From the IMG/VR virus record IMGVR_UViG_3300010885_076060, positions 1-24,083 of that record: a stretch of DNA of 24,083 nt. One strand, written 5' to 3'. The stretch is from a virus. Position 1 is the first letter of the stretch, and each line of letters begins with the position of its first letter. Below the pieces are notes generated by a model. That model saw only the letters and a program-made list of their open reading frames with translations. It ran no database searches and was not told the origin of the DNA. This document shows positions 2,380-24,056 of the stretch, one piece after another. The position numbers and the translations under genes are program-made.

Positions 2380-2429
2380 GAATAATCTTTAAATCCATTG
2401 TATTCTCTTAGTTATAGGAGGATATGACC

Positions 2430-3326
2430 ATGAATATTTTCGACCTAAGCAGAAAGTTTTCTACACCAGAAAAAGCGGTAAAATATTTCGAGTCCGTCAG
2501 GTGGAAAGATAAGGTTGTTTGTCCTTATTGCAAATCTGACAAGACCTGTAAGCACAGAACAAAGATACAAAATAGGTGGCAATGCTGGAAGTGCCATAAA
2601 TCCTTTGCTGTCACAGTAGGGACAATTTTTCATGGAACGCATATTCCCCTCAACAAATGGTTTATGTTGATGGCTTTGATGCTGAACGCCAAGAAAGGTT
2701 TGTCCTCTTGCCAAGCATCAAGGGATATTGGCGTTCAACAGCGTACAGTTTGGTCGATGATGCACCGCATTAGGAAGGCGATGGAAACCGACCAAGCCCA
2801 GCTACTCAAGGACGTTGTGGAGATGGATGAGACTTACATAGGCGGGAAGCCACGAAAAGGCAAAGACAAGGACGATGATGATAAGCCCTCAAGTCCTCGT
2901 GGGCGTGGCACGAAGAAGACGCCCGTTGTTGGCATGGTAGAGCGTGGAGGAAGCGTTAAAACTGTCGTAGCTTCCAAGTACGAGCTAAAAGGCAAAGACC
3001 TGAAGAAGCTGGTACGCAAGCACATTGACCTTGAGGAAACCATCCTTGTCACGGATGAGTACAAAGGCTATCTTGGCATGAAAAACCTGATCTGTCATCT
3101 CAGCATCAACCACCAGAAAACATACGCTGAGGGCGATGTGCATACGAACACCATCGAAAGCTTTTGGGCAATCCTCAAGCGTGGTATGATCGGACAGTTT
3201 CACAAGGTGAGTAAGAAATATTTGCAAAACTACTTGCATGAGTTCGAATATCGATATAATCGAAGAAATGCAGATAATAGAGTTACGTTTGAAAATTTGT
3301 TAGGAAGAATGTGTTATGGAAAATAA
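2430..3326 (+). CDS. IS1595-family (ISXO2-like) DDE transposase
   Basis: It catalyses excision and insertion of the element. I chose ATG 2430 because AGGAGG (2416-2421) lies 8 bases upstream; ATG 2424 lies only 2 bases from it. The 298-aa product has an N-terminal zinc ribbon (CPYC at 31-34, CWKC at 52-55), then a helix-turn-helix-like region (LSSCQASRDIGVQQRTVW). The catalytic core shows the expected acidic residues: D133 in EMDETYIGG, D209 in LVTDEYKGY, and E243 in HTNTIESFWAILKRG. The charged insert KGKDKDDDDK between the first two blocks is common in the family. Length and motifs are complete, so the enzyme is probably functional. Its end overlaps the first passenger gene by 11 bases, so expression of the two is linked. 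Confidence 0.95.
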   Translation: MNIFDLSRKFSTPEKAVKYFESVRWKDKVVCPYCKSDKTCKHRTKIQNRWQCWKCHKSFAVTVGTIFHGTHIPLNKWFMLMALMLNAKKGLSSCQASRDIGVQQRTVWSMMHRIRKAMETDQAQLLKDVVEMDETYIGGKPRKGKDKDDDDKPSSPRGRGTKKTPVVGMVERGGSVKTVVASKYELKGKDLKKLVRKHIDLEETILVTDEYKGYLGMKNLICHLSINHQKTYAEGDVHTNTIESFWAILKRGMIGQFHKVSKKYLQNYLHEFEYRYNRRNADNRVTFENLLGRMCYGK

Positions 3327-3807
3327 AAACATTGAATTATATGACATGCCCACCAGAATCAAAGAGCTTGAATTCATTCAAAGTGTTATTACTAGATTAT
3401 CTGATAGACAGCAATCCATAAAATACGCTTGCTGGACATTTCTGGCTGCTATTTTTGGAGCATCTCAAGTTCTATCTGCCAGCAATTTTACTAAATTGGC
3501 TGCATTCGTTTCCAGTGCATTATTAATATGGAGCTTTCGTAAAATTGATTTAAATTTCTTAAAAATGGAAAAGCTGTATCGCATATGGTACGACTTTATC
3601 TGTTGGAAAAGAAGCGAAACCTGCCAATGGCTTTTTGAATTGAATCCTAAAAACATCAAACAAATTCTAAAGGAAGAGTCCACTGTTTTTAGTGAATTCG
3701 ATCCATCTATAATTGAGTCAGAATCAAAAAAGAGTTGGTCTCTTCCCGTTTATTTTTGGTCAGGATTTTCTATTTGTTTGTTGTACGCTATCTCCCTGCT
3801 TGTTTAG
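3316..3807 (+). CDS. Passenger small membrane protein, candidate effector of a TIR defence pair
   Basis: ATG 3316 has AGGAAG at 3302-3307 and overlaps the transposase end. The 163-aa product has EFIQSVITRL at residues 19-28, two adjacent membrane helices (about 36-53 and 60-76), a soluble middle, and a third hydrophobic stretch at the C-terminus (about 144-163). From memory, the opening motif and the layout match small membrane proteins often encoded beside DUF1863/ThsB-type TIR-like proteins, and they resemble the 2-TM SLATT effectors of defence systems. Here the neighbour is exactly such a TIR gene, overlapping tail to tail by 20 bases. A membrane-damaging effector role is inferred; an immunity or anchoring role is possible. 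Confidence 0.6.
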   Translation: MENKNIELYDMPTRIKELEFIQSVITRLSDRQQSIKYACWTFLAAIFGASQVLSASNFTKLAAFVSSALLIWSFRKIDLNFLKMEKLYRIWYDFICWKRSETCQWLFELNPKNIKQILKEESTVFSEFDPSIIESESKKSWSLPVYFWSGFSICLLYAISLLV

Positions 3808-4264
3808 CTGCTTTTTCTATCCATTTCTCGATGTTGTCATAAATACACTCATAGGCAGTAGACGCATTGCATTCTATAGATGGGTCATAGGCATTTAAGT
3901 TCATATTTACAAGACGATAAAATGGATTGTGTCCTTTAGGAGTTGTTAGCCCATTTCTGTGTTTTATTTTGTGAATAAAAATACCAAAAACACCCATTCT
4001 TCTCTCAAGGCTTCTGTCGATTTCATAACGAACCCATTTACTATCAGAAGTATCAGAGCCTATCAAAACACAAGTAACACTTGCTCCGTCAAGTTGTTCA
4101 TTTATCCAACGTTTTATGCTTTCATCAGAACTTCTTTTTACTGCTTCAATGTCTGCGTGATCCGTAAATTTTTTGTTCGTTGTCTCAAAAGTGCCAATGT
4201 TTCTGATTTGATTTACAGCCCAATTATCATCCCAACAAAAACTAAAAAATACTTTTCTAGCCAT
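3788..4264 (-). CDS. TIR-like protein, ThsB/DUF1863 (MTH538) family
   Basis: I start at the reverse-strand ATG at 4264 (MARKVFFSF, the usual start of this family), with GGAG upstream; the ATG at 4279 lacks this spacing. The 158-aa product has the first strand VFFSF (5-9), the helix KRWINEQLDG, the core VTCVLIGSDTSDSKWVRYEI (63-82) and GVFGIFIHKIK (91-101). These are the hallmark blocks of PF08937 TIR-like proteins. In Thoeris, the ThsB proteins sense phage and make a cyclic ADP-ribose-type signal. No ThsA effector is encoded here, so the overlapping membrane protein is the obvious partner candidate. Possible roles are phage exclusion for the host or element, or an unrelated nucleotide hydrolase. 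Family assignment is confident; the role is inferred. Confidence 0.85.
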   Translation of the reverse strand: MARKVFFSFCWDDNWAVNQIRNIGTFETTNKKFTDHADIEAVKRSSDESIKRWINEQLDGASVTCVLIGSDTSDSKWVRYEIDRSLERRMGVFGIFIHKIKHRNGLTTPKGHNPFYRLVNMNLNAYDPSIECNASTAYECIYDNIEKWIEKAAKQAGR

Positions 4265-4280
4265 GAATTTATACTCCATA

Positions 4281-4538: not shown

Positions 4539-4949
4539 ATGGCAACACGTAATTATCTTTGCGAAATCCTCATTCCAAACTACAAGCAGCCCAGAGGAAT
4601 CAAGGGGGAAGCATCCCTATCCTTTGAGATAGCAGGCTACTTGAGACAGATGTCCATAGAAGGGAAGCTGCCTTATGTGTGGTTTCATGTTCCTAATCAA
4701 TTCTCAGGACAATATCGCGGTGTATTCGGCGCAATGATGGCTTGGATGGGGAGAATATGCGGAATCCCTGATTATGCCTTTCTAGGAAAGGATGGCTGCT
4801 TTTTCATTGAGGTGAAGACAGACAAGGGAATTCAAAGCGAGAATCAAAAAATCGTTCAAAAGTGGTGTGAGGATGTGGGTGTAAAATACTGCTTGTGTCG
4901 ATCTTTGGAAGATGTTAAAAGGGTTATATTCGAGCGCACTGCTCGATAA
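4539..4949 (+). CDS. VRR-NUC domain nuclease
   Basis: This 136-aa protein has the compact VRR-NUC (PD-(D/E)xK superfamily) pattern. E30 lies in the first helix, GIPDYAF is at 75-81 with catalytic D78, FFIEVKTDKG follows with E91 and K93, and the helix starts SENQK with Q103. Stand-alone VRR-NUC proteins of this size are common in phage replication regions, where they are thought to act as structure-specific or Holliday-junction nucleases. The start ATG 4539 has no clear Shine-Dalgarno, so the start is the least certain part. The gene ends the left transcription unit; a small hairpin (CGAGC/GCTCG, 4931-4945) overlaps its end and a terminator follows. Confidence 0.88.
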   Translation: MATRNYLCEILIPNYKQPRGIKGEASLSFEIAGYLRQMSIEGKLPYVWFHVPNQFSGQYRGVFGAMMAWMGRICGIPDYAFLGKDGCFFIEVKTDKGIQSENQKIVQKWCEDVGVKYCLCRSLEDVKRVIFERTAR

Positions 4950-5010
4950 GGGTGCAGGTTAAGTCCTCATCCTACATCATCCAGAGGTGAAGCCTCCCTG
5001 TTAAACTTTA

Positions 5011-5036
5011 TCCCCCTTAATCGGGGGATTTTTTTT
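5011..5036 (+). terminator. Rho-independent terminator after the VRR-NUC gene
   Basis: The stem TCCCCC (5011-5016) pairs with GGGGGA (5023-5028) around a 6-base loop and is followed by eight T (5029-5036). It closes the left transcription unit. Upstream, 4950-5010 holds only a small hairpin GAGG/CCTC (4984-4996). In a P22-like phage, late transcription would need antitermination or a separate promoter past this point. Confidence 0.88.
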
Positions 5037-5046
5037 GAAATAAATC

Positions 5047-5193
5047 ATGAAAAAAGAAGAAGTCATCAATAAGAAAGGTATTGTGTCTAAAATGCAGTCT
5101 TTTCTTGACTTGTGGGAGAGAACGAAAGATATTCAGTATTATTATGAATACCAAAAATATTTCAAACAGTTGAAACATGAAGTTGATCAGTGA
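5047..5193 (+). CDS. Hypothetical charged helical protein (48 aa)
   Basis: ATG 5047 begins just after the terminator. The product is MKKEEVINKKGIVSK, then a helix rich in aromatic residues (QYYYEYQKYFKQL). It is highly charged, with no membrane stretch and no known domain. No good Shine-Dalgarno is visible, since the T run of the terminator lies where it would be. It overlaps the next gene by 17 bases in another frame, which argues for coupling but also leaves room for it being a chance frame. Confidence 0.4.
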   Translation: MKKEEVINKKGIVSKMQSFLDLWERTKDIQYYYEYQKYFKQLKHEVDQ

Positions 5194-5368
5194 ATATTGC
5201 TCCGTTGCTTCAAAGATATTGTTCTCTTGGCATGTGTTGATTGTAACAGGCTTGCTATGCTTCGGTTATGTGGCTCATCTTGTATGGGGCGCGAATAATG
5301 TTGCAGAGCAAGTGGATGAAGAGATTCTGAAGGATGTTTTTGGGGTCGAGGTGGAGTTTTCTAAATAG
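5177..5368 (+). CDS. Small single-pass membrane protein (63 aa)
   Basis: A membrane helix lies at about residues 15-38 (ILFSWHVLIVTGLLCFGYVAHLVW), preceded by a short polar N-terminus and followed by an acidic tail, EQVDEEILKDVFGVEVEFSK. From memory, the tail resembles that of small phage proteins, often membrane-anchored or lipoproteins, ending in a similar E...D.I....G...D pattern whose role is unknown. The place between the replication genes and the terminase is where P22-like phages keep holin, lysozyme and Rz genes, so a lysis-related role is conceivable from position only. No lysozyme is visible nearby. Confidence 0.55.
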   Translation: MKLISEYCSVASKILFSWHVLIVTGLLCFGYVAHLVWGANNVAEQVDEEILKDVFGVEVEFSK

Positions 5369-5373
5369 CTTAT

Positions 5374-5421
5374 GGGGCGGTGCTTATTAATTTTTGATAG
5401 GCTGGATATTCAAGCCGCCCC
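5374..5421 (+). promoter_or_regulatory. Long-range hairpin in the gap between two small genes
   Basis: GGGGCGG (5374-5380) pairs with CCGCCCC (5415-5421), and CTT/AAG extends the stem inward across a two-base bulge. The loop is AT-rich. It is followed by AAAGGA and ATG 5444 rather than by a T run, so it is not a standard terminator. It could control translation of the next gene or stabilise the transcript. Confidence 0.45.
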
Positions 5422-5443
5422 GCCAATATGAAAGGAAAAACTA

Positions 5444-5662
5444 ATGGACGGCAATTGGCATATCGCGACACTTAATGAATTTTTTCCTCTGAAACCTGTT
5501 GAAAAAGATCAATCAAGACTTACAGAAAAGGAATGTGTGAATTTAAGAGCATTGTGCCTTAAAATAGCTGATGCTGAACAGGAGAGAGATAACTATGGAG
5601 GATCAACCAACGTAATTGGTCGAGCCAATCGTCTTTACGCGTACATCACGAAGGGAGAGTAA
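5444..5662 (+). CDS. Hypothetical protein (72 aa)
   Basis: ATG 5444 follows AAAGGA (5431-5436). The product (MDGNWHIATLNEFFPLKP...) has a central helix LTEKECVNLRALCLKIADAEQ and a small Gly/Asn-rich end. I recognise no domain. It is followed within one base by the next gene, with which it must be cotranscribed. It lies just ahead of the terminase genes, among the early or late accessory genes of the phage. Confidence 0.6.
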   Translation: MDGNWHIATLNEFFPLKPVEKDQSRLTEKECVNLRALCLKIADAEQERDNYGGSTNVIGRANRLYAYITKGE

Positions 5663-5663
5663 T

Positions 5664-5885
5664 ATGAACAATATCAAAATCCATAAGCTTTATGACGGCA
5701 GCATTATTTTTACCAATACTGACACAGGAGAAGAGAAATCTTTTCCTAAGGAACGGCTCGTTCATTTCTATTCAACACCTGCTGACCAATTTCAATATCT
5801 TATTGACTTTGCAATATCTTTGAATGAGACGACAGCAAAACCCGTAAATATTAAGAAGAAAAAAATTGCAGAGGAGTTTTCGTAA
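5664..5885 (+). CDS. Hypothetical protein (73 aa)
   Basis: I choose ATG 5664 because it has AAGGGAG directly upstream and only one base separates it from the preceding stop; an in-frame ATG at 5616 lies inside the previous gene. The product starts MNNIKIHKLYDGSIIFTN and reads as beta strands (DGSIIFTNTDTGEEKSFP), then a helix and a lysine-rich tail NIKKKKIAEEFS. No family is recognised. It is the last small gene before the packaging genes. Confidence 0.6.
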   Translation: MNNIKIHKLYDGSIIFTNTDTGEEKSFPKERLVHFYSTPADQFQYLIDFAISLNETTAKPVNIKKKKIAEEFS

Positions 5886-5920
5886 AAAAGTGTTGGAAAA
5901 CTGCCAAAAACGCTTCATGC

Positions 5921-5940
5921 TAATTGGGATTAATTGGGAA
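5921..5940 (+). repeat. Tandem 10-bp repeat ahead of the small terminase gene
   Basis: TAATTGGGAT is followed directly by TAATTGGGAA, in the 60-base gap before ATG 5947. Small terminases often bind near their own gene, so this could be part of a packaging recognition (pac) site. A chance repeat is equally possible. Confidence 0.4.
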
Positions 5941-5946
5941 ATTTAA

Positions 5947-6366
5947 ATGACTTGGAACGGCAATACTCCATTCATTGAAAATCACAAACATTCGGCTAAA
6001 CCACGGAAGCGTACGACTTTGTCTGAAGAAAAGCTAACAGATGCTGCCTATCGTTCAGGCGATGATCTTCTTCTTTTCTATGAACAGCTTTTTAAAAACA
6101 AAAATTTAAAGAAATATGGCGGAGACAGGATTAGATTAGCGGATAGAATCAATGCCGCTCATTATTGGTCTAGGCTTGTTTTTGTTCAGCCTAAAGAGGG
6201 CGCTGTAGAGCCACCCTCAGATATTCAATTAACACCAGAACAGCACGAAGAATTTGATAAGTTCCTGTTATCTAAGGGTATTTCTCGCGAAAATATTACC
6301 TTTGAAAAGAAACTTGTGGTTGAGGTGTCAGAATTTTTAAAGAACATGATTAACAGGAATGCTTAA
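5947..6366 (+). CDS. Putative small terminase subunit (139 aa)
   Basis: It is assigned mainly by position: directly before, and overlapping by 8 bases, the large terminase gene. Its length (139 aa) and helical composition fit; P22 gp3 is slightly longer (about 160 aa). The N-terminal basic stretch KPRKRTTLSEEKLTDAAY could form the DNA-binding part, the middle helices (GGDRIRLADRINAAHYWSRLVF) the oligomer core, and the C-terminal helix EVSEFLKNMINR the contact with the large subunit. No sequence motif proves it. In P22-type packaging the small subunit recognises pac and starts headful packaging. Confidence 0.6.
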   Translation: MTWNGNTPFIENHKHSAKPRKRTTLSEEKLTDAAYRSGDDLLLFYEQLFKNKNLKKYGGDRIRLADRINAAHYWSRLVFVQPKEGAVEPPSDIQLTPEQHEEFDKFLLSKGISRENITFEKKLVVEVSEFLKNMINRNA

Positions 6367-7762
6367 TATTCAGGCTTTGTCATCCCTAAACGATCAGCAT
6401 TACTTAAATGAAACCTACGAGCCTACGCCGAAAGCTCTGCAATTCTACGCGTCAGGACTGACAGCACGTCAGAGATTGTTATTAGGAGCTGTTCGTTCAA
6501 GAAAAACATCTCTCGCTTTGAAAGAGGTCTCGTGCCATGTCCACGGACATTATCCCAAATGGTGGAATGGATATAGATATGATCGTCCTACAAGATGGCT
6601 CGTTGGGACTGTGAAAGCGGAGAAGACGCGTGATGTTCTTCAGAAATATCTTCTCGAAGGAGACGCGCAGTTTGGACTAAATCCTTTCATTCATCCAAGT
6701 TTGATCGTTGACAGATATTCAGGCTCTCTCAAGAATTCAGTCAATAAGCTTTTCGTTCAACATGCGTCTGGCGGAATATCTGAAATTAAATTCTCTTCCT
6801 TTAGTGAGGGTGCGAGCGGTTTGCAGTCAGAGACATTTGATGGCGTTCATTTGGATGAAGCTCCTGATTTTGACGTTTACCAAGAAATATTGTTCAGAAC
6901 AACGGCATTTGGAGATTATAAAACATTTGTCATTTTAACTATGTGGCCTGAGCGGGGAAGAGATGAGCTTGTCTCATTCTTCATGAATAAAGGGAGTGCT
7001 GGTGAATCTGTTGAAGATCACTTTTACATGCATTGTTCATGGGCTGACAATCCATCAATGACAGAAGAAGAGAAGACGCGATTAAGACAAGGAACTCCTG
7101 AGTATTTGCTTGACGCTCGTGAGCATGGGATTCCTATTTTTGGTGTTGGTAAGGTCTTCAGGATGAAAGAAGAAACTGTGGTGATTCCTGCTTTTGAAAT
7201 TCCTTCTCATTTTGCTCTTGTCTATGGGGTTGATCCCGCAGCGACCCAAGACGGATTGTGGGGAGCGGTATTGCTCGCTTATGATAGGGATAATGATATT
7301 GTGTATGTCATCAAAGATTACAAAAAAAATGGTATTACCCGTGTAGAGCATCACGACAATTTATCTCATATCTTTCCTGATTGGGTGATGGGAATATGTG
7401 ATCCTGGCGGCGGTGGAGAAGATCAGCAGACGCGTGAAAGTGCCGTTGATTTTCTGAGAAACAAAGGTCGAACTATTATCATCGCTAATAAGGCGAAAGG
7501 AAAAAAAGAAGCACGGATTGATGATATTGAAATACGCTGCCGATCAAGTAAGTTCAAAATATTTGAGACTTGCGTGCATTATCTTGATGAATGGAGGCGA
7601 TACTCAAGAGATGAAAATGGCAAAATCATTAAAGAAAATGATCATACGCTTGATGCCAGTTTTTATGCTATCAGCGAATTGGGACGTGCTATAACCAAAA
7701 GAGAAACAGAAAGAATATGGAATGATTCAAGTCCTGACTATGGATATTTATTTGGTGAATAG
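6359..7762 (+). CDS. Large terminase subunit, P22 gp2 type
   Basis: This is the ATP-driven DNA-packaging motor and headful nuclease. The 467-aa length is close to P22 gp2 (499). The ATPase part has a P-loop region GAVRSRKTS (43-51), the typical HVHGHYPKWWNGYR block (60-73), and Walker B VHLDEAP (163-169). The C-terminal nuclease shows YGVDPA (D292), ICDPGGGG (D348) and NDHTLDASFYAI (D432). From memory, the stretch REHGIPIFGVGKVFRM and the end segment FKIFETC...YSRDENGKI follow P22 gp2 closely. The P-loop has Arg where the usual GKT glycine sits, which is odd. The gene overlaps the small subunit gene; the portal gene begins 3 bases after its stop. Confidence 0.95.
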   Translation: MLNIQALSSLNDQHYLNETYEPTPKALQFYASGLTARQRLLLGAVRSRKTSLALKEVSCHVHGHYPKWWNGYRYDRPTRWLVGTVKAEKTRDVLQKYLLEGDAQFGLNPFIHPSLIVDRYSGSLKNSVNKLFVQHASGGISEIKFSSFSEGASGLQSETFDGVHLDEAPDFDVYQEILFRTTAFGDYKTFVILTMWPERGRDELVSFFMNKGSAGESVEDHFYMHCSWADNPSMTEEEKTRLRQGTPEYLLDAREHGIPIFGVGKVFRMKEETVVIPAFEIPSHFALVYGVDPAATQDGLWGAVLLAYDRDNDIVYVIKDYKKNGITRVEHHDNLSHIFPDWVMGICDPGGGGEDQQTRESAVDFLRNKGRTIIIANKAKGKKEARIDDIEIRCRSSKFKIFETCVHYLDEWRRYSRDENGKIIKENDHTLDASFYAISELGRAITKRETERIWNDSSPDYGYLFGE

Positions 7763-17539: not shown

Positions 17540-19165
17540 ATGGCAACCGCACTTTTAGACGGAATTAAAAGTATTACGGAAATATCCAAGCTGTCTCAGG
17601 CAGATCGAAAAGAGAAAGCCAAAGAGAGGTCAAAAGCGGGAGATATGGCCATCAAGAAAGCAACGCTTCTTGGTTCCATGCCCACAGAAGGCGGAACGAT
17701 GGGTGAAGGGCTTATGGCAGGTGCGAATCGCATGGCTCAAAATCCTCATCAAAACGCCTGGACGGGACTCATTGAAGGTCTCATGCGCGGGTTTGGTATG
17801 GGACTTAAGGGCAAAGAAGCCGCGGAAAAACGCAAGCAGGTAGAAGATGCTCTCGACATGATTGATTATGCTATGCAGGGACAGGAATATCTGCAAGGCA
17901 TTCAAGGTCAGGTTGCTCAGAAACGGGAGGATTTCGCCTTCATACCCTCTGAAAAGCAATATATGGATGCCGTTAAAGAAGGAACTCTAAAGCCAACCAT
18001 TCAGACCATGCTTCAGGAAAATGGCATCGATCCCAATAATGTTACGCTTTCGGATGACAAAATGACACTATTCGTGGACAAAGATGGCAAGATTGAGAAA
18101 ATTCCTGTTGCCAGCATGTTTAATCCCGAAGACTCAAGGAAATTCGGCTTTACAAACTCTATGGTCAAGACCAATCTCGAGCAGTCGGCTAATGAGCAGG
18201 TGAGAGGACTCGCTCAAGAAAACAACGCCATGAAGAGCAAGCTGGAAATTTATCAGGACATGTTTTCCAAAATTCAAGGCGTTGATCCTGCATTGGCGCA
18301 GATGGTCGCAGAGGGGGTGGTGGAAGGCGAGCAGATAGAAAAACAGAAACTCGGCAATGAGACCATGACCGCTGAGGCGAGAAAAAGATCATCTTTGGCA
18401 AGTCAAGATAGAGCCAATTTGGATAAGACCTATCGACCTAAAGAGCTTTTGTTAAGGGAACGCGAAGCAGAAACGGCGGAGCAGAATGCAGATTCAAAAA
18501 CCGTAAAATTGATTCAGGAGTTGGTAGGTGAAGAAATAGACGCTAAAGAGGACTTTTTGAGGACTTCCCCCAGAATTATTGAGATCGTTGATAAGTATCC
18601 TCAGATTTGGGGATCGTTGGCTCAACTTCAATGGGAGAATGAAGACCCATCTTACTTTGAAGCCAAAAGGCGTAACTTGATGAACAGTGGAGAAAAAGGA
18701 CAAGCTGCCGCTGAAATGATCAAATATATTAATAAGATGCAGATTGACGTTGCTCGTGGATTTATACGTCCCAACCAGTTTTTGGAGAAAAAAGGATCAA
18801 AAGCAGTGCCAAACTTCAATATGCCTGCGGCTTCCTTCAGGAAAATCATGGGCGAGCAAATCATGGATGCTAATGAGGACATTCAAAAGCTTAATAAACG
18901 TATTCAGGCAATCTCAGGAAGGCGTCAGGATCAATTCTATGATGCTTTCTCAGGGAAAAAAGAATATATCCCCCCAGCAGCTCCAAAATCGCTTGGAATG
19001 CGAGATACAACACCTCTACAGGGGGCAGATAGTGGGAAGGGGAGTGGGGTTACGATTGTTTTGTACGACCCAGAAACGAAGCAAGAAGAAGTTAAATCTG
19101 TCTCAGATTTGAACCAGGCAATCGCACAGGCAAAAAAGGTTGGTCTTGAAGTGAGAATCAAGTAA
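17540..19165 (+). CDS. Internal virion / ejection protein 2 (P22 gp20 position)
   Basis: The 541-aa protein is mostly helical and highly charged, with long coiled-coil-like segments (KPELLLREREAETAEQNADS; EDIQKLNKRIQAISGRRQ). Its Gly/Met-rich early part (GSMPTEGGTMGEGLMAGANR) may be flexible. It starts 3 bases after the preceding stop, and its TAA overlaps ATG 19165 as TAATG, so the three ejection genes form one translational block. P22 gp20 is 471 aa. No enzymatic motif such as a lytic transglycosylase is seen. Role inferred from context. Confidence 0.6.
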   Translation: MATALLDGIKSITEISKLSQADRKEKAKERSKAGDMAIKKATLLGSMPTEGGTMGEGLMAGANRMAQNPHQNAWTGLIEGLMRGFGMGLKGKEAAEKRKQVEDALDMIDYAMQGQEYLQGIQGQVAQKREDFAFIPSEKQYMDAVKEGTLKPTIQTMLQENGIDPNNVTLSDDKMTLFVDKDGKIEKIPVASMFNPEDSRKFGFTNSMVKTNLEQSANEQVRGLAQENNAMKSKLEIYQDMFSKIQGVDPALAQMVAEGVVEGEQIEKQKLGNETMTAEARKRSSLASQDRANLDKTYRPKELLLREREAETAEQNADSKTVKLIQELVGEEIDAKEDFLRTSPRIIEIVDKYPQIWGSLAQLQWENEDPSYFEAKRRNLMNSGEKGQAAAEMIKYINKMQIDVARGFIRPNQFLEKKGSKAVPNFNMPAASFRKIMGEQIMDANEDIQKLNKRIQAISGRRQDQFYDAFSGKKEYIPPAAPKSLGMRDTTPLQGADSGKGSGVTIVLYDPETKQEEVKSVSDLNQAIAQAKKVGLEVRIK

Positions 19166-21750
19166 TGCCAAGTAAATTTGCCCTTTTTGACCAAGGTATG
19201 TCGCAAGATCAAGGTCAGGTCAGTCCTCCTGTGGATTTACCGCAAAGCGGAAATAAGCCTATGTCAAAGTTTGACCTTTTTGATCAAGGCATCGGACAAA
19301 CAGAAACATCTAACCAAACCGCACAGCCCACGCCAGAGAAGCGTGAAGGCTTAATGGGAATGCTTGAAGATGCGGGAGATTACTTTAGGAAGCATCGTGA
19401 TGAGCGTTTAGCAAATGAGGAAAAGACAGAACCCTATACCTACGCCCAAAGATTTATGCAATTGGGCAGGGGTGTCACAAATACCTATACAGGATTAAAA
19501 GATATTTTGAGTCAATATGGAGCCTATCCTGTCCTCTTGGGAGCAGAAAAAGTTTTAGAAGTGGCAGGAGCAAAAGAAGCAGCTAAAGCCATTACACCTT
19601 ACAAGGAAAGCTTTGGAGATAGCACTTCATTACATGACTCACAAAAGTGGTGGAATGAGCAGGCTGGAAGAGACATAACCCCTAAAGATAGTACTGGAAA
19701 GCAATTAAACCTCCTTGGAGAGTTTTTCGCTCCCCTGCCCGTTAAGGGCGGCCGAGCATTAAAAGAAGCTATTGCGGGTAAGACTTCTAAGGAAGCTGTT
19801 AAAAATGTTGCTGATCTGGCAGGAACGAATATAGCGCGCTCTACAGGGGCAGCCGAAGCCATGCACTTGGCAGATGAGCGTTTTTTCAGTAAAGACAATA
19901 GTCCTGTTTTGAATTTTATAGATGGGTGGCTTGAGTCTGTAGCTGGGGCAGCATTAGGTGAAAAAGCTTACGGAGGAGCAAAAACTCGTATCCTTCAAAA
20001 ATTAGGTCATACCGTTCATTTGACTGCTGAACAACTTGCCAGACAAGCTGCTAAACAATCTCAGAAAGAATCTCTCGAAAAAATCGGTAATCCTAATAAA
20101 ACTCAAAGAGTAATAGGAAAAATCCTTTCTAAAACAGTTAAGAAAGATGAGGGATGGGAAGAGCTTATTAAGTCAGCTAAAGAAGAGGGAGTTGATCTGC
20201 CCTTCAATGTTGCATTAGGAGGAGGAAAATTTAAAAACCTGCTGGCTAATAACATCTTCAAGTCTATGTTTACTTCTAAAAGTTACAATGCGGTTATTAC
20301 AAACGCTGACAGATCGATGGTGAATGGACTCAAAGAAGTGATTGAATCGGTTCATCCTTTTCCGTCCTTGCGTGGTGAAGCTTCTGAAAGCGCAAGGAAT
20401 TTTCTGAAAAATGAATCAGAAGCCGTCCTAAAGGAACAGAGGCAGCTTTACGACTATGCTGAATCTTTGATTAAACCAGAGGATAAGGTTTCTATCGCTC
20501 CTTTTATTAAGCGGGCGGACAAAATCCTCACATCAATGTCTGATTCTCCTTCTGGTGCGCGGGCAACAGTTTATAATAAGATTTTAGATATTTATGACAA
20601 GTGGGGACTACTATCAAAAAAAGATAAAAAAGTAGCGGATGAACTCGCGTCTTATGTTGGCACAATGGACGGCAGAGAGGTAAGAATTCCGCAAGAAATA
20701 TTAGAAAAGGCTTTGGCAATAGGTCAATCTAAAAAATCAGATGCTCAAATTTTAGCTTCAAGAGTAGAGAACCTTAGGAAAGACTGGAATCAACTTTATG
20801 ATCCTGCAAAACAGGATTTTTCTAAAATGTTTGGCTCTTTAACAAAAGGATTGAAAGAAAGCCTCGAAACTTCTCCTAATAAGGATTATACAAGCGCTCT
20901 CTTTAGTGCGGATAAATTCCATGAAATGAATGTAGCGAATCGCATTAAAACAGATATGGCTCAATCGCTCATGAATGGTGAAGTCCCTAAAGAAGCCTTT
21001 CAATACATGGATACCCCTCAAAGAGTAAAGCAGCTTTCTCATATTATGGGAGACAGTCCTCAAGCTAAGGAGGTCATGCAGTCTTTGAAGCGTGCCAAGC
21101 TTAATGAGATTCTTTATGAAAAAGCTGTGGATGGACAGTCGGCTATTTTAAATGAATCGGGACATATTAAATATGGAGCATTAGCGAGCAGCCTTATCAA
21201 ATCACATAATATTGAACTAGTGAAAGAGCTTTTAGACCCAGCAGCCTTCCAACAGCTTCAGAGATTGGCTAAGATTTCTAAGGGATTTTTTGAATCAGGA
21301 AGACAAGAAGGAACTAACTGGTCAACAACAGGGATTGCCTCTTCTGATATAGGGAAGTTTAACAAAGGACTGGACTCTGTTATTGCGGCGTTAACTGCTT
21401 CTATATATGGTTCTACCTCTGGTATGTCCCCTGATCTCTCTACTATAGTTTCAGGATTAGCTTCTGCCTACGCCCCCATAGGAGCAATTAAAGGATTTTC
21501 CTTACTTTTATCTGATAAAAAGATCATTGATTCTGCCATTATGTACGCGAAGGCAGCGGTGAAAAATGATAGAAAAAGAATGGATAGACTTCTTGAGCAT
21601 TTGCAACAAAGAGTCAATGACTTGCGAGAGACTAAAGAAGGATGGTCAGGTGGTATTAACTTTCATGCAGAGCGATTAAATGATGGAACGGAAAGAAAAA
21701 TCAGAGCCAAAGATGTACTATATGAAGAATATAACAAAAGAAAAAATTAA
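19165..21750 (+). CDS. Internal virion / ejection protein 3 (P22 gp16 position)
   Basis: This 861-aa protein is the largest in the window and the last of the ejection block (P22 gp16 is 609 aa). It begins with a duplicated ten-residue motif, SKFALFDQGM at 3-12 and SKFDLFDQGI at 34-43, which may serve as a docking or packaging tag. The rest is mainly helical and charged, with a less polar Ser/Gly/Ala-rich segment late in the protein (VIAALTASIYGSTSG; LASAYAPIGAIKGFSLLL) that could contact the membrane. No transglycosylase active site is recognised, so it is probably a structural DNA-transfer protein. The late operon appears to end here. Confidence 0.62.
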   Translation: MPSKFALFDQGMSQDQGQVSPPVDLPQSGNKPMSKFDLFDQGIGQTETSNQTAQPTPEKREGLMGMLEDAGDYFRKHRDERLANEEKTEPYTYAQRFMQLGRGVTNTYTGLKDILSQYGAYPVLLGAEKVLEVAGAKEAAKAITPYKESFGDSTSLHDSQKWWNEQAGRDITPKDSTGKQLNLLGEFFAPLPVKGGRALKEAIAGKTSKEAVKNVADLAGTNIARSTGAAEAMHLADERFFSKDNSPVLNFIDGWLESVAGAALGEKAYGGAKTRILQKLGHTVHLTAEQLARQAAKQSQKESLEKIGNPNKTQRVIGKILSKTVKKDEGWEELIKSAKEEGVDLPFNVALGGGKFKNLLANNIFKSMFTSKSYNAVITNADRSMVNGLKEVIESVHPFPSLRGEASESARNFLKNESEAVLKEQRQLYDYAESLIKPEDKVSIAPFIKRADKILTSMSDSPSGARATVYNKILDIYDKWGLLSKKDKKVADELASYVGTMDGREVRIPQEILEKALAIGQSKKSDAQILASRVENLRKDWNQLYDPAKQDFSKMFGSLTKGLKESLETSPNKDYTSALFSADKFHEMNVANRIKTDMAQSLMNGEVPKEAFQYMDTPQRVKQLSHIMGDSPQAKEVMQSLKRAKLNEILYEKAVDGQSAILNESGHIKYGALASSLIKSHNIELVKELLDPAAFQQLQRLAKISKGFFESGRQEGTNWSTTGIASSDIGKFNKGLDSVIAALTASIYGSTSGMSPDLSTIVSGLASAYAPIGAIKGFSLLLSDKKIIDSAIMYAKAAVKNDRKRMDRLLEHLQQRVNDLRETKEGWSGGINFHAERLNDGTERKIRAKDVLYEEYNKRKN

Positions 21751-21840
21751 GCTCTTTATTAAAACGAGATTTGTAATTTTGTCTATTTATTTTACCATCA
21801 TTGATGTCACGTCTTTTTTTTTATCCATAATAGGGAAGAT

Positions 21841-21963
21841 ATGAGCCACGTTTACTCTCTTATCAAAACTTGTGAATTCTGGTTAGTGATGGAAGGAATT
21901 GCTCTTTTATGTAAACTACTCAAAGAGCATTTCAAGAATCATCCATTACCGATTATTTGGTAG
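21841..21963 (+). CDS. Small hypothetical protein (40 aa)
   Basis: ATG 21841 has AGGGA at 21832-21836 and opens a 40-codon frame (MSHVYSLIKTCEFWLVMEGI, then LLCKLLKEHFKNHPLPIIW). It reads as one amphipathic or partly hydrophobic helix with a basic end and could lie on the membrane. Ahead of it is TTGATG (21801) and CATAAT (21826) at a long 19-base spacing, a weak promoter candidate. It faces the reverse-strand membrane gene tail to tail with a 5-base gap. Unknown function. Confidence 0.42.
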   Translation: MSHVYSLIKTCEFWLVMEGIALLCKLLKEHFKNHPLPIIW

Positions 21964-21968
21964 TTTTA

Positions 21969-22340
21969 TCAAGAAGCCATAAACCAACTATCGACTTTCC
22001 ATTTCAAGGGATAATTCTTTTCAAGCCATAAATGAAGATCGTGACCATATTGTGTGTCTAGGAGACCATTGTATTTGAATATTCTTATAAGAAGCCAAAA
22101 TCCAAAGATAAGTAAAAAGATACCGTGTATAATTTTGTTGGAAACGGCGAATATATCCTGCTCAACGAAACAAAATACCTGTACTGGCAACCAGAACGCC
22201 CACATCCACCATCCTATCCTGACGGCACATCTGATCACCCTATTTCTGTAATGCTTGAGCCAAGAGATTTGTGATCTGTCGATGGGGTCTTGTTCTATGA
22301 TTGATTTTTTTTTGATCTGTGGTATATTTTTTGTAGACAT
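21969..22340 (-). CDS. Two-helix membrane protein, possible superinfection-exclusion protein
   Basis: This reverse-strand gene starts at 22340 (MSTKNIPQIKKKSIIEQD), with AAAGGA upstream; a longer frame from 22382 lacks this. The 123-aa product has a basic N-terminus, a Trp-rich membrane helix (AVRIGWWMWAFWLPVQVFCFV), a second one (IIHGIFLLIFGFWLLIRIF) and a polar end. It lies opposite to the late operon, between the last ejection gene and the fibre-like genes. In P22 the same place holds sieA, a small inner-membrane protein that blocks DNA entry by related phages, together with the immI region. No sequence match to SieA is claimed; the analogy is position, orientation and topology. Confidence 0.6.
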   Translation of the reverse strand: MSTKNIPQIKKKSIIEQDPIDRSQISWLKHYRNRVIRCAVRIGWWMWAFWLPVQVFCFVEQDIFAVSNKIIHGIFLLIFGFWLLIRIFKYNGLLDTQYGHDLHLWLEKNYPLKWKVDSWFMAS

Positions 22341-22344
22341 TGTA

Positions 22345-22360
22345 ACGAGTTCCTTTCGTT
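22345..22360 (-). promoter_or_regulatory. Repeated ribosome-site hairpin, copy A
   Basis: The 16 bases ACGAGTTCCTTTCGTT (+ strand) recur exactly at 22533-22548. On the reverse strand they read AACGAAAGGAACTCGT. With the next base they form a 5-bp stem around the AAAGGA ribosome site, 10 bases ahead of the membrane-protein ATG. Such a small stem could tune translation. Confidence 0.55.
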
Positions 22361-22368
22361 GTGATGTT

Positions 22369-22392
22369 AGGACGATGCTCAAACATCGTCCT
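22369..22392 (-). promoter_or_regulatory. Perfect 9-bp hairpin in the leader of the membrane-protein gene
   Basis: AGGACGATG (22369-22377) and CATCGTCCT (22384-22392) form a perfect stem with a 6-base loop. No T run follows on either strand, so it is not a plain terminator. It lies in the 5' leader of the reverse gene, just ahead of the ribosome-site hairpin, and could be an operator or an RNA control element. Confidence 0.6.
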
Positions 22393-22484
22393 ATTACTTT
22401 CTCCTATCCCATAGTGCGAGTCAAGCATTATCATCTATTGTCATATAGTCTGGTATTTCTTTGATTTTTGATATTATTCTAAAT

Positions 22485-22529
22485 TCAGATGCTTCTTTCC
22501 AAGAAATTTGCTAGAGTAGGGTCAGGCAT
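22485..22529 (-). CDS. Possible 14-codon leader peptide
   Basis: On the reverse strand, the second copy of the ribosome-site element lies 9 bases ahead of ATG 22529, which opens MPDPTLANFLERSI and a stop. It may be a leader peptide, the stump of a deleted gene that once shared the same leader, or chance. The ribosome site is the only support. The surrounding 22393-22698 holds no other gene that I can support. Confidence 0.25.
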   Translation of the reverse strand: MPDPTLANFLERSI

Positions 22530-22532
22530 TTG

Positions 22533-22584
22533 ACGAGTTCCTTTCGTTCAATGTTGAGCATCACGGGGCAGCTAAAGACTGCCC
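22533..22584 (-). promoter_or_regulatory. Repeated ribosome-site hairpin, copy B, with adjacent stem-loop
   Basis: The exact second copy of the 16-bp element (22533-22548) is followed on the + strand by GGGCAG (22566-22571) and CTGCCC (22579-22584), a 6-bp stem with a 7-base loop. This repeats the layout of copy A: element, ATGTT, stem-loop. The stems differ in sequence but keep their place, as in related control regions. Confidence 0.5.
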
Positions 22585-22698
22585 TGTTGATGCGACTCAC
22601 CACAAACTATCAGGAGAATGTGATGAATGTTGAATTATTACGAAAAACATAGAAGAACACAATATGCAAACTGAGACACTCACCAACGGAAGCAGAGA

Positions 22699-23064
22699 AT
22701 GAACGTAATCCATATTCATAGAATTGATAATGTCAGCTGGGATCAGGCTGGTCATTACTATGTGAACAATGGCAATGATGTTATGGTCAGCATAGGAGCT
22801 TGCTCGCAGTTTACTGGATCAGGTAGACCTGACACAGACATTACACCTTATATCACCTATGATAATCTTTTGTGGTTTACTCTTCCTACAGTCACTCTAC
22901 GTGGTGCGCTCGAACCTCCATATGGCGTGAATATATCCGATGGGTTGTATGGTATCCGCGGCATCCGTTTATATCCCAGTACTACACAACTCATTGAGCT
23001 GATTGTTTGCGAAAGCTTTGTACCTATCCGTACATCCGCTATCGGAAACGCACCTAATTTGTAG
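22699..23064 (+). CDS. Virion or fibre-associated protein, first of two paralogues (121 aa)
   Basis: ATG 22699 follows GGAAG at 22687-22691. The product is beta-rich, with the shared blocks YYVNNGNDVMVSIG in the first third and CESFVPIRTSAIGNAP at the end; the next gene has both. It also has YNLLWF-like aromatic strands (TYDNLLWFTLP) and GLYGIRGIRLYP in common with its neighbour at protein level. I recognise no named family. The position after the immI-like region, where P22 encodes its tailspike, and the beta-rich composition suggest a tail-associated or receptor-binding accessory. Confidence 0.55.
   Translation: MNVIHIHRIDNVSWDQAGHYYVNNGNDVMVSIGACSQFTGSGRPDTDITPYITYDNLLWFTLPTVTLRGALEPPYGVNISDGLYGIRGIRLYPSTTQLIELIVCESFVPIRTSAIGNAPNL
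22754..22798 (+). repeat. Duplicated block near the 5' end of the paralogue pair, copy 1
   Basis: This 45-base block starting ATTACTATGTGAACAATGGC differs at one position from 23134-23178 in the next gene and encodes YYVNNGNDVMVSIG in the same frame. The sequence around it is much less similar. Confidence 0.9.
23001..23054 (+). repeat. Duplicated block near the 3' end of the paralogue pair, copy 1
   Basis: These 54 bases, starting GATTGTTTGCGAAAGCTTTG, are identical to 23399-23452 in the next gene and encode the shared C-terminus. They could serve as a recombination handle. Confidence 0.92.
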
Positions 23065-23078
23065 AGGAGAAAGTTTTT

Positions 23079-23462
23079 ATGAAAACGATTCCAATTATTG
23101 GCATCAGTCCAAACAACTACAGCAATCTGCCGTATTACTATGTGAACAATGGCAATGATGTTATGGTTAGCATAGGAGTTTTCCCTATAACCTATCCTGC
23201 GGGCCCCGCACAGATTGAGATTTTTCCATTTGTGACATACGACAATTTTTTGTGGTTGGCTCTCGACTCTCCAAACACGCCCCTTATTATTCCTGTGGGA
23301 ATGGCACAACAAACTGGTATTTCTATCGCTAATGGGCTCTATGGAGTGCGTGGTATACAGCTTCAGGTTGTCGGGGACGCTAACACGCGAGTAGGCATGA
23401 TTGTTTGCGAAAGCTTTGTACCTATCCGTACATCCGCTATCGGAAACGCACCCACCTACTAG
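23079..23462 (+). CDS. Virion or fibre-associated protein, second of two paralogues (127 aa)
   Basis: ATG 23079 has GAGGAGA (23064-23070) at ideal spacing. It shares with the preceding gene the blocks YYVNNGNDVMVSIG, VTYDNFLWLAL (against ITYDNLLWFTL), ISIANGLYGVRGIQL and CESFVPIRTSAIGNAP, while the segments between have diverged. The shared DNA blocks are 44/45 and 54/54 bases identical, far more than the rest, so gene conversion or recent exchange is likely. It is probably a beta-sandwich virion protein forming homo- or hetero-oligomers with its paralogue. Function unknown. Confidence 0.6.
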   Translation: MKTIPIIGISPNNYSNLPYYYVNNGNDVMVSIGVFPITYPAGPAQIEIFPFVTYDNFLWLALDSPNTPLIIPVGMAQQTGISIANGLYGVRGIQLQVVGDANTRVGMIVCESFVPIRTSAIGNAPTY

Positions 23463-23469
23463 GTTTGAT

Positions 23470-23859
23470 ATGGGCACTTATCCTTTCGTTAACTTCAAGA
23501 TGACGCCAACACTCAATATTGGCAGTACTCCTACTTTGATTTTTGGCAACGATCTTTATACGTGCCTTATAGATAGTGTTTTTATTTCCAATGTCACAGA
23601 CAATCTTATGCTTGTGACGGTCTATATCGCCAGAGAGCAGACGATTGGTACAGAAACAGATTTCATCTTCAGCAATCAAATCGCTCTTCCTCCCAGTGAA
23701 AGAATTGATGTTTTACAAGGAAGTACGCTTACTGTTGAAGCCGCCGATCTTCTCTATGCTTATTCCGATTCTTCTTCAAATTTGTTCAACACATTTGTCT
23801 CATATCGTGAGCTCACTGAACTCACTGCATCCTTTGGCAGCCAAAAAAAATACATCTAA
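23470..23859 (+). CDS. Small beta-rich virion-type protein (129 aa)
   Basis: I start at ATG 23470, 8 bases after the preceding stop; the in-frame ATG at 23401 lies inside the previous gene. The pattern is LNIGSTPTLIFGNDLYTCLIDSVF, ISNVTDNLMLVTVYIAR, then ALPPSERIDVLQGSTLTVEAADLLYAY and a final strand FVSYREL (listed in separate blocks). It resembles a family of short phage structural proteins, seen near coat or fibre genes, with a beta-sandwich fold. It is probably a minor virion or fibre-associated protein. No clear Shine-Dalgarno is seen, so coupling to the preceding gene is likely. Confidence 0.6.
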   Translation: MGTYPFVNFKMTPTLNIGSTPTLIFGNDLYTCLIDSVFISNVTDNLMLVTVYIAREQTIGTETDFIFSNQIALPPSERIDVLQGSTLTVEAADLLYAYSDSSSNLFNTFVSYRELTELTASFGSQKKYI

Positions 23860-23906
23860 TTCCTTTGGAAAAGTGATATATTACTTCAAAATTAAAGGAG
23901 AGAATG

Positions 23907-24056
23907 ATGTTAAATATTTTGAGTTTAGGACTGTGTTTATTTTTATGCTCTTGCAATATCCCCGTTCTGTTCTGGGAAGAAGAAGGCCGTAAAGTGGTGG
24001 ATGATGTGGTGAATGAAGAAGAAAAAATTACACCTCCTGCTCCTCAAACAACCTAA
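23907..24056 (+). CDS. Small lipoprotein (49 aa), candidate spanin-type or surface protein
   Basis: Two adjacent ATGs occur at 23904 and 23907; AAAGGAG (23894-23900) fits 23907 better. The product MLNILSLGLCLFLCSCN is a short signal peptide with a lipobox-like LCSC, so cleavage before the last Cys would give a mature lipoprotein of about 34 residues. The mature part is acidic (EEEGRKVVDDVVNEEEKI) and ends in a Pro-rich tail TPPAPQTT. Small Pro-containing phage lipoproteins include outer-membrane spanins (Rz1). No partner Rz-like gene is in the window, so this is only a candidate. A near-palindrome (AAGTGATATATTACTT, 23871-23886) lies upstream. Confidence 0.5.
   Translation: MLNILSLGLCLFLCSCNIPVLFWEEEGRKVVDDVVNEEEKITPPAPQTT

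Follow-up and report, generated by a model that had tools for sequence, protein, structure and literature searches.

An orphan gene for a predicted membrane protein opposing the late operon, at a P22-type slot behind the ejection genes of a podovirus-like phage

The stretch of DNA analyzed here (hereafter the window) is a complete IMG/VR record of 24,083 bp (IMGVR_UViG_3300010885_076060), which may itself be a fragment. Matches to phage families were found for the terminase, the portal and, weakly, the coat. Terminase, portal, scaffold-like, coat, tail and three ejection-type genes follow one another as would fit a P22-style podovirus, with the scaffold and ejection roles assigned from gene position. 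Among named relatives, the best are the Megaira phage MAnkyphage (34% for the terminase and 24% for the portal) and a Caedibacter taeniospiralis plasmid (32% for the terminase), and the host is therefore likely to be a protist-dwelling endosymbiont. Searches with the last ejection gene led to two further related phages (G001 and G002), and those with the gene at 4539-4949 to two more (G003 and G004). The last ejection-type gene of the window (19165..21750, plus strand, 861 aa), whose role is likewise taken from its position, forms the left edge of the slot described below, and its protein is 73%, 51% and 33% identical to those of G001, G002 and G004, respectively; the ejection gene of G003 was assigned by position and not by similarity. 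In the record of G001, this gene (L003 5001-7622) is broken into two frames (5001-6584 and 6633-7622), and the break lies in a stretch that is near-identical to G002 at the protein level. Elsewhere in the window, a convergent gene pair (3316-3807 on the plus strand and 3788-4279 on the minus strand) matches the candidate defense system PDC-M50, which comprises the membrane protein PDC-M50A (E 3e-12) and the ThsB-type TIR protein PDC-M50B (E 4e-50; Pfam ThsB_TIR 9e-24). The pair is adjoined by an IS1595-type transposase (2424-3326), and the block is also present at the contig end of G001, with proteins that are 82-85% identical. G001, G002 and G004 all retain a further small membrane gene of the window (5177-5368).

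Beyond the ejection genes, the minus strand carries the gene under study (21969..22340; hereafter the target), which starts with an ATG at 22340, ends at 21969 and encodes an orphan protein of 123 aa. A Shine-Dalgarno sequence, AAGGA (22351..22355, minus strand, read from 22355 to 22351), precedes the ATG with a 10-nt spacing, and the leader extends over 22341-22393. The first-pass annotation had given the gene the span 21969-22392; the ORF is indeed present there, but the gene proper is confined to 22340-21969 and the rest is leader. A 137-aa form with a TTG start, taken from a mechanical ORF list, was rejected as it runs into the leader hairpin. Of 2000 shuffles of the spacer region, 13 (0.65%) gave an ORF of at least 124 codons, and at least nine Trp occur in 0.05% of composition-matched codon strings. 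Thus, based on its nine Trp and its unusual length, the target ORF is probably coding. By codon usage it is not separable from spurious ORFs, and low codon-usage scores are also seen in other small genes of this phage; promoter-like sites are no commoner than in shuffles. A run of nine A (22305..22313, minus strand) lies within the gene, at KKK codons near residues 10-12, and is one of only two 9-base homopolymers in the window, the other being a T9 run at 21814-21822.

A basic N-terminus and two Trp/Phe-rich helices had been ascribed to the product of the target, and composition, hydropathy and a low-confidence structural model agree with this prediction. The protein has 16 Lys and Arg residues against nine Asp and Glu, and contains nine Trp and nine Phe. 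KD hydropathy shows a weak peak of 1.21 at residues 42-60 and a strong one of 2.32 at residues 70-88. The AlphaFold model, which is of low confidence (pLDDT 66, pTM 0.36), places helices at residues 23-60, 64-91 and 98-110 and has the shape of a two-helix hairpin followed by a short third helix. We tentatively predict, with the hydropathy and this model as guides, an inner-membrane protein with a helical hairpin topology. No homologues were found in IMG/VR, INPHARED, PLSDB or GTDB contigs, the search for related loci relying on exact peptide words, which distant relatives of the target may escape. Several of the homologue queries spanned 22343-21969, one codon beyond the ATG, and one was the 137-aa TTG form, which is immaterial for homology. 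Family searches against Pfam, PHROGs, NCBIfam and PADLOC were likewise without a match, and two PHROG matches (E 0.017 and 0.25) were dismissed as chance. Searches of the PDB with the target protein returned matches at chance level only, and no homologue of the target is encoded at the slot in G001-G004 or MAnkyphage.

The leader was thought to carry two stacked hairpins, and its computed fold bears this out (MFE -21.3, z -3.86; one of 200 shuffles is as good). The upstream hairpin (22368..22393, minus strand) has a 10-bp perfect stem, one of just two perfect stems of at least 9 bp in 24 kb. The second hairpin (22344..22360, minus strand; stem AACGA/TCGTT), found in the same fold, holds the Shine-Dalgarno sequence in its loop, and its outer stem pairs the start codon of the target. 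The arms of the upstream hairpin (TAGGACGA/TCGTCCTA) are found again at the corresponding site of G004, where a counter-oriented membrane ORF starts about 25 nt farther on, and in G003 strong hairpins likewise precede the counter-oriented ORF. Several strong palindromes follow the ejection-type gene of G003 (L080 13522-13910), one of which has the 15-mer GACGAATTCGGTTTC in common with the palindrome of G004. A scan for the leader palindrome returned 71 contigs, among which G004 is the only relative, while the others look like unrelated palindromes.

The 16-nt segment with the Shine-Dalgarno sequence (AACGAAAGGAACTCGT) occurs a second time, unchanged, at 22533..22548 (minus strand), 188 nt farther upstream than the target's copy. 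This second copy has a hairpin upstream of it (22558..22593, minus strand; z -2.68) and a 14-codon ORF behind it (MPDPTLANFLERSI; 22485..22529, minus strand), which is perhaps a gene remnant or a leader peptide. The 16-nt repeat was found in 53 contigs of IMG/VR, which is roughly the chance expectation for a 16-mer. The arrangement of a CAT, a stem, a Shine-Dalgarno loop, the returning stem and an ATG was dropped as a defined element, as the window has six hits, mostly away from gene starts, against 1.5 per 24 kb of random sequence.

The target had been placed between the last ejection gene and fiber-like genes. Its orientation against the late operon is confirmed, but a small membrane gene missed in the first-pass annotation (21716..21963, plus strand) intervenes and is convergent to the target. 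The start of this gene overlaps the stop of the ejection gene, and it consists of two ORFs (21716-21844 and 21841-21963) that overlap by ATGA. The T9 run (21814..21822, plus strand) is the site of a putative -1 slip that would join both ORFs. The run is present in the window and in G001, and in both the -1 frame is open from the T9 into the second ORF; over the first 26 codons past the T9 in this frame, the two phages differ by 11 synonymous and four nonsynonymous changes. When joined, the two ORFs give a product similar to that of a 78-aa ORF of G004, which lies in one frame at the same place and in the same orientation, with a z of 4.6 for the window fusion and 7.9 for the G001 fusion, compared with at most 1.9 for the separate ORFs of the window. 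Thus, the open -1 frame, the synonymous bias and the joined match suggest that 21716-21963 is probably one gene, either read through the slip or split by one. An error of assembly at the T9 would account for the split frame as well, but is less likely given that G001 also has a T9 there. A segment that includes most of this gene (21737..21969) is inverted in G001 (L003 7619-7851), as seen from a nucleotide match on the opposite strand (75% over 166 nt, E 2e-28) and from tblastx, which carries the match to 21969; no flanking inverted repeats of at least 7 nt were found around it. G004 has the window's orientation of the segment, whereas in G001 the gene has a start region similar to a leftward start in G002.

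In each of the five phages, the 900 nt that follow the last ejection gene contain at least one counter-oriented ORF of 45 aa or more with a membrane segment; the products measure 123 aa in the window, 53 aa in G001, 50 aa in G002, 55 aa in G003 and 76 and 65 aa in G004. In the same genomes, such an ORF is present on one strand of a 950-nt window in 21.5% of cases, which gives a P of about 5e-4 for five of five, in a post hoc test that counts small ORFs not proven to be genes and two close relatives (the window and G001). G001-G004 are thus like the window in their podovirus module order and in having counter-oriented small membrane ORFs after the last ejection gene, although these ORFs are unrelated to the target protein. 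MAnkyphage has a related module order, but its slot is filled by toxin-antitoxin genes instead, with RelE/CopG genes just after the last ejection gene. A patatin gene lies beyond the slot ORF in G001. In G002, the slot (L059 8978-10552) contains a gene for HicA (Pfam 1e-14), a likely HicB gene as its partner, and other small genes, possibly toxin-antitoxin pairs as well. The contents of the slot differ among the window, G001, G002, G003, G004 and MAnkyphage, as is characteristic of morons. Since relatives have HicA, patatin and RelE/CopG genes at this slot or next to it, position alone points to an accessory gene and not to exclusion.

The analogy with P22 drawn at the outset is sound as to position, as sieA in NC_002371 is on the minus strand, 22 bp after gene 16, and is followed by mnt/arc/ant and then gene 9. 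The site between genes 16 and 9 of P22 has been described as a variable 'ant moron' in flux (PMC2629481), and all sieA-like genes examined in detail occupy the P22 sieA position (PMC10883804). SieA acts on the ejection proteins gp16 and gp20 (PMC10883804). Like sieA, the target is a gene for a small membrane protein that opposes the late operon after the last ejection gene. However, SieA has 164 aa compared with the 123 aa and two predicted helices of the target, and a plus-strand gene intervenes between the ejection gene and the target, unlike in P22. The slot resembles the 'ant moron' of P22-like phages (PMC2629481) in being a variable accessory region with differing genes, but no homologues of mnt, arc or ant were recognized in the window. 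Also, whereas the P22 'ant moron' ends at gene 9, a tailspike or fiber boundary is plausible in G001 and was not recognized in the window, where the target opposes and follows an ejection-type gene assigned by position and has no gene-9-like match to its right. The target had further been proposed to be unrelated to SieA, and BLASTP against P22 SieA (type A) agrees (E 0.30 over 26 residues). The 123-aa sequence lacks the SieA motif FxRYPxEAxxFNK (PMC10883804) and, judged by sequence (against type A) and by motif, the target is not a member of the SieA family. The target is best read as an orphan moron, an accessory gene that occupies a P22-type slot behind the ejection genes. The orphan protein is what is new here, and the class, that of moron genes at the P22-type post-ejection junction, is known.

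What such a gene might do is suggested chiefly by the analogy with SieA, which makes superinfection exclusion at DNA entry the best single guess, albeit a tentative one. In this view, transcription of the target would begin in its own start region and run counter to the late operon, and the 123-aa product would sit in the inner membrane as a two-helix hairpin, its basic N-terminus facing the cytoplasm. From the inner membrane of the carrier cell, this protein may then interfere, as SieA does, with the ejected proteins or the DNA channel of a related phage. The membrane character, opposed strand, private leader and swappable slot suggest that the target would be expressed apart from the lytic program. 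Position and orientation as in P22 sieA, the counter-oriented membrane ORFs in five of five phages, two helices with a basic N-terminus and a private structured leader whose arms recur in G004 all favor exclusion and, as the phage has a candidate defense pair elsewhere, acting against other phages would be in keeping with the rest of its gene content. On the other hand, the target has neither a homologue nor SieA similarity or motif, its codon usage does not set it apart from spurious ORFs, and promoter-like sites are at the level of shuffles. Moreover, no tyrosine or serine recombinase (PF00589, PF00239) was found in the window or in G001-G004, all of which may be partial records, and lysogeny, which exclusion presupposes, is therefore unsupported. 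The slot contents of relatives, being toxin-antitoxin-like genes or enzymes, also weigh against exclusion. They agree with a role for the target as other accessory cargo, such as a membrane toxin or a host-modifying membrane protein whose translation is held tight by the leader, and we regard this possibility as nearly as likely as exclusion. The leader hides both the Shine-Dalgarno sequence and the start codon, the slot has toxin-antitoxin-like genes in G002 and MAnkyphage and a patatin gene in G001, and small Trp-rich two-helix proteins are frequently membrane-active. Nevertheless, the target lacks a recognizable antitoxin partner or antisense RNA, Rfam searches gave no match, and most type I toxins are shorter than 123 aa.

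The convergence of two small membrane genes at the end of the late operon could also be read as a lysis function, with the target acting as a holin or antiholin, alone or together with the gene at 21716-21963, and in G004 a counter-oriented operon with an endolysin leads toward the slot. We consider this unlikely, as the endolysin lies about 6 kb from the slot in G001 and about 30 kb in G002, an endolysin match is absent from the window, and the gene at 5177-5368 is an equally good holin candidate. In addition, the target opposes the late operon and the slot content is swapped among relatives, unlike what would be seen for an essential lysis gene. The codon usage, which resembles that of spurious ORFs, the lack of a homologue, and surroundings that were rearranged by inversion and have short, broken-looking frames would all suit a non-working ORF, that is, a chance or decaying frame in a rearranged spacer. 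This too seems improbable in view of the length and Trp statistics given above, the Shine-Dalgarno sequence and structured leader, the membrane helices with a basic N-terminus, and the low codon-usage scores of the phage's other small genes. A broader proposal is that the slot is a recurring two-sided device, in which a late membrane gene with the T9 slip faces an interchangeable inner-membrane excluder with a start-hiding leader and an A9 run, and that the excluder represents a protein family, new and unrelated to SieA, with which phages of protist endosymbionts block DNA entry. We offer it as a speculation that is quite improbable in its entirety.

If the target does act in exclusion, a cargo site next to the ejection genes would serve entry blocking far beyond the enterobacterial P22 group, by way of an unrelated protein, and phages of uncultured endosymbionts would have yielded a gene for entry exclusion. 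Apart from exclusion, the comparison shows a little-studied phage group in which small membrane ORFs opposing the late operon recur at this slot, as well as a neighboring gene whose parts a T9 slip probably joins or has split.

The genes to the right of the target had been called fiber-like, a description that finds no backing in family matches where these were sought, namely in Pfam, PHROGs and NCBIfam for 22699-23064, in Pfam for 23079-23462, and in Pfam and NCBIfam for 23470-23859. Relatives of 23470-23859 adjoin the portal gene in G001 (65%) and G003 (28%), and the gene has thus moved relative to these phages. The small genes 22699-23064 and 23079-23462 are paralogous, with near-identical ends (55 nt at 100% and 48 nt at 96%) and middles that have diverged, as if via gene conversion or core exchange. 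Farther right, a 50-aa ORF (23904-24056), which is without a family match, has a lipobox-like N-terminus (LFLCSC) and may possibly encode a small lipoprotein.
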